42,892 nt of DNA, from contig CALVZA010000048.1 of assembly GCA_944372415.1 (NCBI GenBank), positions 1-42,892 on the forward strand, given 5' to 3'. This document shows positions 1-10,107 of this stretch, in pieces. Source of the DNA: an uncultured Bacilli bacterium (GTDB taxonomy: Bacteria > Bacillota_I > Bacilli_A > RF39 > UBA660). Made by a program: the position numbers and the translations under genes. The notes below the pieces were generated by a model. It saw only the letters and a program-made list of their open reading frames with translations. It made no database searches and was not told where the DNA came from. How positions within the stretch are numbered: the first letter of the stretch is position 1; each line of letters starts with the position of its first letter.

Positions 1-270
1 TATCAAAGAATACAGGAGAAATTTAATAAAGAAATTTCTTTAAAGAAAAATAAACTTAATGAAATAAATGAATATTTAGAGAAGATAAATAAAGATGAAG
101 ATACATTTAAGACAATAAAAAAAGAAGTTCTAGAATTTAAAGATAGATATCCAACTAGAGATTTAATATTAAAATTAATTAAAAATATTTCCATACACAA
201 AGATGGAAATATTGATATTTATTTTAACTTTAAAGAGTTAAATTTTATTTATAATAAGCGTGATGCCTGA
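1..270 (+). CDS. Large serine recombinase, C-terminal end (5' partial)
   Basis: The frame is open from base 1 and ends at TGA 268-270, giving 89 residues with no start in the window. The first half is a Lys/Glu-rich coiled coil; the second half has a DLILKLI-KNISIHKDGNIDIYF pattern ending in FNFKEL, which resembles the tail of large serine integrases of phages and conjugative elements, where the coiled coil lies in the C-terminal DNA-binding part. Such enzymes insert or excise an element between attP and attB through a catalytic serine near the N terminus, which is outside the window. The gene stops about 15 bases before recognisable transporter coding sequence begins, as expected for an integrase at the edge of its element. 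Another DNA-binding protein with a coiled-coil tail is possible. Confidence 0.75.
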   Translation, partial: YQRIQEKFNKEISLKKNKLNEINEYLEKINKDEDTFKTIKKEVLEFKDRYPTRDLILKLIKNISIHKDGNIDIYFNFKELNFIYNKRDA

Positions 271-290
271 TAACTTCAATCAGAAGGTAT
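268..290. other. Putative attachment junction (element right end / zupT)
   Basis: Here the recombinase reading frame ends (TGA, then TAA) and transporter coding sequence starts in the same frame. ZupT proteins carry HNFPEG in this position; the window reads LQSEG, so homology resumes at about base 281-283 (CAGAAGGT). The crossover therefore lies close to 280-286. The left end of the element and the other half of the gene are outside the window, so the core sequence cannot be fixed. Confidence 0.55.
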
Positions 291-678
291 CATAACTTTT
301 TTAACTAGTGATAGTGATTTAAGATTAGGTTTAAAAGTTGCTATTGCAATAACACTACATAACATACCAGAAGGAATATGTATAGCCGTTCCAATATACT
401 ACTCTACCAAGAGGGTAGGTAAATCAATACTAACTACTTTAATAAGTGGACTATCTGAACCATTTGGCGCTATATTAGCCTACTTATTCTTATATAAGTA
501 TATAACTACTACTATATTAAATATTATATTTATATTCGTAGCAGGAATTATGATAAGTTTAGCAATAAATGAAATTTTAAAAGAATCTATTAAATATTCA
601 GAAAAACATAATAAATACATTTATACGGGAATAATAATTGGAATAGTATTTTTTATAATAAGTTTATTATTTACTTAG
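274..678 (+). pseudogene. zupT: ZIP-family metal transporter, 3' fragment (ZupT-like)
   Basis: The frame from 274 to TAG 676-678 encodes the C-terminal half of a ZIP (Zrt/Irt-like) divalent-metal transporter. Visible marks are TLHNIPEGI, the second of the two HNxPEG metal-site motifs, then GLSEPFGA, and four hydrophobic segments. E. coli ZupT has HNFPEGIATF about 30 residues earlier; this copy keeps only EGIITF and has lost the H, N and P, together with all N-terminal helices. No start codon with a ribosome binding site is seen in front. The gene looks interrupted by the recombinase-carrying element; the N-terminal half should be at the other end of the element. It is probably non-functional unless the element excises. 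Confidence 0.8.
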
Positions 679-6694: not shown

Positions 6695-8077
6695 TTAAAA
6701 ATCTAAATCTCCCAATTCAAGTTTTTTTGTTTTCATTAAGTCATCTAACGCATCATCTATATCTTGTTTAGGTTCTTCTTTCATTTGACGTCTTGTTTCT
6801 TCTAATATATTAAGAGTATCAGTATTTTCTTTAATAATATCATTTTCTAAAGTATCATTATTTAATATATTAGGATCTGTTTCTATATTTTCTTCTTCTT
6901 TATTTTGATTATTATTATTGTTTTTATCATTATTATCTTTTTTATTCTTTTTATCTTTATTTTTCTTTTTCTTAAATATTAAAATAAATGCAGTAATAAT
7001 AATTCCTAATCCTAATATAGATAATAATATAATTAACCAAGTATTATTTTTTTTCTTTGTTACTTTACTAGTTTCTAGTTTTTTATCTTCTTCTTTTTCT
7101 TCTTCAAGTTCTTCTTTAGTAACTATTATAGTATAAACTTGCTTATTTTCTCCATCACTACTTGTTACAGTAATTGTAATAGTGTTTTCTCCTTCTTTTA
7201 AGTTCTCATTACCCTTAATTTCTACGTTAGCAGTTGGATCTTCTGGAACATAGCTAATATCTAATTTATTAATATCCATTCCAACAGTGGCAGTATAATC
7301 ATTTACCATAGAGTCAAAATTAGGACTTAATATAGCATCTTTTATTTTTAAGCTTTCTAAATAAGCAGAACTAGTAGTTATTTCTCCTCTATAAACATTC
7401 AAATTATAAGTTTTAACTAAAGTACCATTTTCAGCATATATTTTTAACTGTACTTGATTAGCACCTGTTTCTAAAGGAACTCTAATAGAATTTTGAGATT
7501 TTTCTTGATCATTTAATGACCAACTACAGTTATCAGTACAAGTTGGAGTAACAGTAACAGAGTTTATTGTATCTTTAATTCCCGTAACTGTGTAATCTAA
7601 TATATCACTACTAAATGTTTTATCAAGTGACCCAACAGAGAATGCTATATTTGATACTGTTGTAGTGCTTTTTAATTCAACAGGCTTAGTAGTACCCGCT
7701 TTTAAAGTAAATGTTTTAGTTGCTCCCGGAATATCACCACCTATAGTAATTGTTGTTTCCTTACTATCAGCAGTAGAATTTTTAACAGTTAAAGTTGCTA
7801 TAGTGGTTTCAGATGTTATCGTAGTAGTAATTAAGGTACATTCTAAATTCTTATCACAAGTACCATAATCACTTTTTAATTCATAAGTTAAATCATCATT
7901 TGTTTTATCAACTTTCAATTTAATAGAGTCTTTTGTATCACTTTCTGGATTATACTTTATAATATACTCTGCAGTATTATTATTTGGATTACCTTCAAAA
8001 GTCAAAGTAGCAGCATTTGTAACTGTAGGAAATAATAATATTCCCATTCCAACTAATAAATATTTAAAATTTTTCAA
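6695..8077 (-). CDS. Surface protein with two cadherin-like beta-sandwich domains
   Basis: About 460 residues. A signal peptide (KNFKYLLVGMGILLFPTVTNA) is followed by a beta-rich region with a CDKNLEC pair. Two cadherin-like beta-sandwich (Cadherin-like/PF12733 type) repeats follow, near residues 140-232 and 240-320, each with the LDYTV or NDYTA turn and ending in YNLNVYRG or YTIIVTKE. One membrane helix lies near 345-370, then a cytoplasmic tail with Lys/Asn runs. The outer part probably binds other proteins or sugars. The frame opens with GTG at 8086, but AAAGGA is only a base or two before it; TTG at 8077 has proper spacing, so I prefer that start. Confidence 0.8.
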   Translation of the reverse strand: MKNFKYLLVGMGILLFPTVTNAATLTFEGNPNNNTAEYIIKYNPESDTKDSIKLKVDKTNDDLTYELKSDYGTCDKNLECTLITTTITSETTIATLTVKNSTADSKETTITIGGDIPGATKTFTLKAGTTKPVELKSTTTVSNIAFSVGSLDKTFSSDILDYTVTGIKDTINSVTVTPTCTDNCSWSLNDQEKSQNSIRVPLETGANQVQLKIYAENGTLVKTYNLNVYRGEITTSSAYLESLKIKDAILSPNFDSMVNDYTATVGMDINKLDISYVPEDPTANVEIKGNENLKEGENTITITVTSSDGENKQVYTIIVTKEELEEEKEEDKKLETSKVTKKKNNTWLIILLSILGLGIIITAFILIFKKKKNKDKKNKKDNNDKNNNNNQNKEEENIETDPNILNNDTLENDIIKENTDTLNILEETRRQMKEEPKQDIDDALDDLMKTKKLELGDLDF

Positions 8078-9729: not shown

Positions 9730-10107
9730 TTATTTTATTGTATTTCTCTTATTTAATTTTAATTGTTTAACATATTCTTTTTTAACAGATTTTACTAGCA
9801 TATATTTACCATAATTATCTCTATACCACTTTTTATAATTTTTTATATAATCTTCATTTAAAGATTCACCATTTTCTAAATATAAATTTCTCTTTAAAAA
9901 TGGATACTGTTCTTTTAAAATATTCATAATAGTATTTCTATAATAACTAATATTACTCATATTTACTTCTTCGCCAACAACAAATGATGCAAATTCAAAT
10001 ATTTTCTCATATTCAAAACCTCCTAAATAACAGACTTCAACAAAAGAAGCAACTATATCTGTTTTAAAATATTTTTCTTGATTTTTTGTAGTTATTTCAT
10101 AAAACAT
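9730..10107 (-). CDS. Unknown protein, 125 residues
   Basis: I do not recognise this protein. It is predicted soluble, with an aromatic and Glu-rich N-terminal half (FKTDIVASFVEVCYLGGFEYEKIFEFASFVVGEE) and a basic C terminus (KSVKKEYVKQLKLNKRN). The ATG has AAAGGAATT a little upstream. It follows hemW closely (18 bases) and in the same direction, so it is probably co-transcribed with it. It ends just before the IS and appears complete. Confidence 0.6.
   Translation of the reverse strand: MFYEITTKNQEKYFKTDIVASFVEVCYLGGFEYEKIFEFASFVVGEEVNMSNISYYRNTIMNILKEQYPFLKRNLYLENGESLNEDYIKNYKKWYRDNYGKYMLVKSVKKEYVKQLKLNKRNTIK

Follow-up and report, generated by a model that had tools for sequence, protein, structure and literature searches.

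How the open frame of a serine recombinase (LSR) comes to run into the second half of a metal-transporter gene is the question raised by the very first bases of the DNA considered here. The window, i.e. the whole stretch of 42,892 bp that was analysed, is the entire contig C48 (G000:C48:1-42892) of a gut bacterium whose genome of 987 kb is 83% complete and, since it is a whole contig, the record holds no sequence upstream of base 1. The earlier note on this DNA had proposed that a zupT gene is split there by a serine-recombinase element, and this reading is upheld by the 5' half of the gene found in the same genome (contig C46) and by the uninterrupted gene of relatives.

A zupT gene interrupted at its first HNxPEG motif

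Open from base 1, the recombinase frame ends at 270, as first read, with a TGA that is immediately followed by a TAA (271-273); past both stops, the same frame encodes a ZIP protein up to the stop codon at 676-678 (Table 1). Positions 274-678 match the Pfam family Zip (PF02535) at profile positions 192-320 of 323 (E 2e-14). Of its two HNxPEG motifs, zupT is split in the first, with an exact joint at GA, which agrees with the proposal that the C-terminal half of a ZIP transporter starts inside that motif. This 3' part is 75-80% identical to the intact ZupT of four congeneric genomes.

Table 1. Features of the interrupted zupT locus (window coordinates unless a contig is named).
Feature	Position	Strand	Basis or remark
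LSR, C-terminal 89 codons	1..270	+	gene start outside the contig; open frame to TGA 268-270
attR P arm, element side, TAAGCGTGATGCCTGATAACTTCAATCA	255..282	+	overlaps the recombinase stop codon; inverted complement of the P' arm
Crossover dinucleotide GA, inferred	283..284	+	2-bp overlap of the C46 and window alignments to L037
zupT (ZIP transporter) 3' part, from GA of motif 1 to the stop codon	283..678	+	Pfam Zip
Second HNIPEG metal-site motif, intact	358..375	+	read from the sequence; integration site of a related element in G350
zupT 5' part	G000:C46:169-531	-	at contig end

With the N-terminus of a congeneric ZupT as query, the missing 5' half was recovered at the end of C46, 79% identical to the sister ZupT. 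It reads ...LHNIPED-CSCYVSR-stop, that is zupT up to the first HNxPEG motif and foreign sequence thereafter, much as had been anticipated for an upstream fragment. When both contigs are aligned to the intact gene of the sister locus L037, C46 matches up to position 10002 and the window from position 10001, leaving an overlap of exactly GA. Sister loci taken together place the neighbours of C46 upstream and those of the window downstream of an intact zupT, in collinear order on both sides; from homology and synteny, C46 and C48 would thus be joined through one element. Joined at GA, the two halves restore an open 251-aa ZIP protein with HNIPEG at both motifs, i.e. the two HNxPEG-type metal motifs of a ZIP transporter, which matches PF02535 as well as solved BbZIP structures. 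The uninterrupted zupT that was to be expected in related genomes is present in all four congeners examined.

Attachment sites

The left junction on C46 (attL) reads ATACCA-GA-GGATTGTAGTTGTTATGTATCACG and the right junction in the window (attR) CGTGATGCCTGATAACTTCAATCA-GA-AGGTATC, which gives a reconstructed attB of TTACATAATATACCAGAAGGTATCATAAC and a reconstructed attP of CGTGATGCCTGATAACTTCAATCAGAGGATTGTAGTTGTTATGTATCACG. The attP of the window genome consists of two inverted arms around GA, matching at 19 of 27 positions, a degree of symmetry equalled by none of 20,000 shuffles. Across the elements tested, the arms are complementary at 17-20 of 27 positions, with 0-5 shuffles per 20,000 matching the observed complementarity in the four elements shuffled, and the attP centre is GA in all seven elements of which both ends are known. 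The att structure of the window genome has the anatomy expected for an LSR. The short direct repeat predicted around the joint does exist but is limited to CAGA around the GA core in the window genome; the wider match of attL and attR in some relatives arises because the P and B arms agree there by chance.

The P arm is identical in the complete elements of genomes G350 and G492 and in locus L089, whose contig holds 22 bp of it, and nearly identical in that of G347. A search for the P arm of attR in 395 genomes sampled over the whole class returned the window genome alone. Eighteen exact 17-mer matches to the P arm in viral contigs were dismissed as chance, none extending as an attP, and the exact P' arm is absent from the viral contigs searched.

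The element and its complete relatives

The body of the element is missing from the assembly, where its two ends are present as stretches of about 170 bp and 282 bp on two contigs; a search of the same genome for the rest of the LSR returned unrelated LSRs only, on contig C40. Compared with the ends of complete elements in two other genomes, they show 96.6% (175 bp) and 98.9% (281 bp) identity to the 4,046-bp element of G350 and 98.8% and 92.5% to the 4,042-bp element of G347. The 281-bp match lies at the 3' end of the LSR gene of G350, the C-termini of both proteins being nearly the same, which assigns the frame that stops at 270 to a recombinase, as originally claimed; the 89-aa tail taken alone has no significant Pfam match. 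In G350, the LSR is a protein of 533 aa with Resolvase, Recombinase and Zn-ribbon domains, also found in the LSRs of G010 and G069, and the cargo comprises a GNAT acetyltransferase and two ASCH proteins, one matching PDC-M11B. As its ends match complete elements and the left one includes the end of a G350-type GNAT gene, the element of the window genome is likely to be about 4 kb long, a size taken from its relatives, with a similar cargo.

Aligned over 4,051 positions, the elements of G350 and G347 share 92.8% identity, although only 126 bp of their host flanks can be aligned, at 73%. Cargo can change entirely, as in G520, where wholly different genes accompany an LSR that shares 88% identity with the G350 enzyme. 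A 13.6-kb element in the zupT of G010 (L147:13476 to L148:7051, G010:C4) carries enzyme-like cargo, namely a GHMP kinase-methyltransferase fusion, an aminotransferase, a U32 peptidase-like protein, an M23 peptidase and a glycosyltransferase, and no transfer genes were recognised in it. A prophage or ICE was considered and rejected, no virion or transfer genes being recognised in the 4-kb elements or in the 13.6-kb G010 element, a test that rests on the elements of relatives given the missing body of the window's own. Viral contigs yielded no relatives, either in pattern scans with the LSR tail and with the full G350 LSR or when queried with the ZIP half, and phage LSRs reach up to about 34% identity among the matches listed. 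The G350 element has no match in Rfam or among plasmids.

Two small proteins of these elements deserve mention. In the 4-kb element, the ASCH-like protein of 142 aa (L214:6675-7103) matches PDC-M11B (E 2.5e-24), a candidate defence family of PADLOC with a name not found in the literature searched. Besides, in the elements examined the LSR is directly preceded by a conserved short ORF of 36-43 aa (at about 7870-8000 on the plus strand of L214, with equivalents in L215, L264, L265, L148, L216/L217 and L149), e.g. MKQELKFNLFYDNVNEDLEQLLVSAIINYLNNKKEMGLHFG in G520; its start codon is apparently ATA in G350 and G492. This ORF has no match in Pfam or NCBIfam and could be a candidate directionality factor.

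Recurrent integration at either motif of zupT

Insertions in zupT were collected by family-wide searches for LSRs and inspection of the joints. In L089, a locus of a MAG from water deer, it is a different zupT that adjoins the same P arm and core. Motif 1 is interrupted in the window genome, L089, G347, G492 and G520, and motif 2 in G350, G410, G010 and G069; the larger related elements (13.4-13.6 kb) also sit in HNxPEG motifs of zupT. The elements of G350 and G492 are 99.0% identical over their full length and, in hosts of different genera, occupy motif 2 and motif 1, respectively, from which it follows that one type of enzyme uses either motif. At both motif positions the codons read CCNGARGG in all 14 intact genes readable by script, and the rebuilt zupT frames are open throughout in 7 of 7 cases. 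In the LSR phylogeny, all seven full-length LSRs that target zupT group in a single clade (support 97/99). In congeners of the window genome and of both G350 and G347, zupT is intact, the element being patchy among genera. Integration at the HNxPEG codons is well supported, and the idea that the motif codons serve as integration site, initially drawn from one junction, is supported by independent elements hitting the same codons.

Related recombinases at other targets

For the LSRs of G003 and G376, the target is another ZIP gene, with the same type of motif interrupted. Others adjoin a P-type ATPase (G336, G056, G340, G372, G186, G072, G337, G525 and G465), the interrupted ATPases resuming at EGLPMM, a place that reads VAVPEGLPMM in intact congeners of G056; the 5' halves of these ATPases were not located in the sequence stretches examined. 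The ATPase-targeting LSRs are not a single clade on the tree, where G465 is labelled 'other', its ATPase target having been recognised later. An LSR directly before a P-type ATPase resuming at EGLPMM can be seen at loci L191-L197, L230 and L235.

Further conserved genes are found next to LSRs. In G519 (L237), a relative on the tree, the LSR is followed by the C-terminal part of an FtsW/RodA-like protein. In L124, L126, L127 and L130, LSRs from the same bacterial family end right before LysM repeats that resume at an SGD motif, e.g. VSGDTLWQIARRFGTT, which suggests the LysM SGD motif as another conserved-motif target for LSRs. In the window genome itself, contig C40 (L162:1-2404, G000:C40) starts inside the C-terminus of an LSR, followed by a 254-aa ORF and then by the apparent C-terminal portion of an amidase that carries LysM repeats; the same contig carries two further LSR genes.

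The glutamates of PEG bind ions in ZIP proteins as well as in P2-type ATPases. On the sequences compared, the simplest reading would be the recognition of a DNA word that encodes PEG in several membrane proteins. A bolder version, tentative and on the doubtful side, would be an LSR lineage specialised on the DNA for the ion-binding PEG of unrelated metal transporters (ZIP at both motifs, ATPases at PEGLP), which would find two attB per gene, hop between protein families via the shared word and maybe toggle metal transport in some hosts.

Proposed explanation and alternatives

Almost certainly, then, an LSR element of about 4 kb is integrated site-specifically into a zupT-type zinc-transporter gene at its HNxPEG codons. 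The evidence consists of the split gene, both junctions with their 2-bp overlap, the intact rebuilt frame, intact orthologues, near-identical elements in other genera and the occupation of both HNxPEG copies by nearly identical enzymes; as for the hallmarks of an LSR integrase, the domains are found in relatives, the att core is short with imperfect inverted arms, and the gene is restored once the element is taken out. In the proposed mechanism, the element carrying the LSR would recombine site-specifically into zupT, with the stretch of HNxPEG codons, whose Glu codon is cut at GA, acting as attB and the imperfect palindrome beside the recombinase stop codon as attP. The enzyme would recognise the motif-encoding DNA, i.e. 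CCNGARGG and its flanks, and a strongly constrained protein motif would in this way provide a site in many species. ZupT activity would presumably be lost for as long as the element is integrated, because translation of the interrupted gene would end after about 128 aa and leave the transporter without its second half. Elsewhere in this genome, a further ZIP gene (C49, 261 aa) and a ZnuA-like protein (C56) are still present.

The earlier note had gone further in seeing here a reversible switch of metal uptake, in which conditional or stochastic excision would restore ZupT as excision of the skin element does for sigK. Both halves are indeed open, and joining them restores the frame in 7 of 7 cases, and the conserved 36-43 aa ORF before the LSR could be a directionality factor, but intact halves are equally expected from recent insertions and this ORF belongs to no family matched. 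Moreover, the same element uses either motif, no cargo gene indicates zinc, and neither an excised circle nor a same-species empty site nor a proven directionality factor was found. The element is scattered among genera, with intact genes in congeners of the window genome, G350 and G347; it is because of this patchy distribution and horizontal spread that an ordinary mobile element is favoured over a programmed switch, which appears improbable.

Alternatively, loss of zinc uptake might itself have been selected, in which case the insertion would have been kept for a benefit to the host and the ATPase insertions would express the same theme. While related LSRs in ZIP genes of two kinds and in the PEGLP of P-type ATPases would fit, and while the remaining ZIP gene and ZnuA-like protein mean that loss of ZupT may be tolerable, the shared CCNGARGG codons account for these targets with no metal-related selection, and one relative sits in an FtsW-like gene and other LSRs of the same bacterial family adjoin LysM proteins, all of which makes such selection highly improbable. 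As for an assembly or binning chimera fusing a recombinase end to a zupT fragment, which a MAG contig starting inside an element with an unbinned body might evoke, its likelihood is negligible in view of the exact 2-bp overlap, the synteny and the recurrence of this joint in independent MAGs, of which several hold the entire element and both gene halves on one contig.

Site-specific insertion by a mobile element would make zupT a natural case of an integrase exploiting the functional constraint of a protein as a landing site across many species, this site being the codons for a metal-coordinating motif of which one gene holds two copies. With near-identical enzymes at both copies and relatives in ATPases, the recognition of targets by LSRs and its shift become testable with few constructs. 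In practical terms, zupT fragments in these genomes should be read as marks of insertion rather than as short ZIP proteins.

Comparison with known systems

Mobile elements whose LSR integrates within a coding gene at a single conserved site are known (Durrant et al., 2022, PMC10083194), with targets that include a magnesium chelatase/ATP-dependent protease and a prolyl isomerase; the word 'transporter' is absent from the main text of that paper. The zupT elements resemble these systems in the LSR gene beside attR, in the reconstructed attP and attB with a short core and in the disruption of a conserved coding gene, but differ in targeting the ZIP HNxPEG metal site, or PEGLP of P-type ATPases for their relatives, and in the use by nearly identical enzymes of two attB copies in one gene. 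Like the skin-type sigK elements (PMC5025042, for C. difficile), they split a gene that excision would restore; unlike them, they are not kept in the lineage, four congeners being uninterrupted, and are patchy and horizontally spread. SCC/ccr cassettes are likewise comparable, the zupT elements being small with variable cargo and CcrB being the best-scoring NCBIfam model for the LSR; this score of 127 bits is nevertheless far under the Ccr cut-off of 900, and the target gene differs. TnpX is required for the excision of Tn4451; with this and similar small LSR transposons, the zupT elements share a compact LSR-moved format, whereas every member of the zupT group sits at the same codons and the 4-kb form showed no resistance gene. 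No paper joining zupT, a serine recombinase and an integration site was found in a search from which most subscription journals and the supplementary target lists of PMC10083194 were excluded. In short, LSR elements in conserved coding sites are already known, and it is the HNxPEG target that is unusual and testable.
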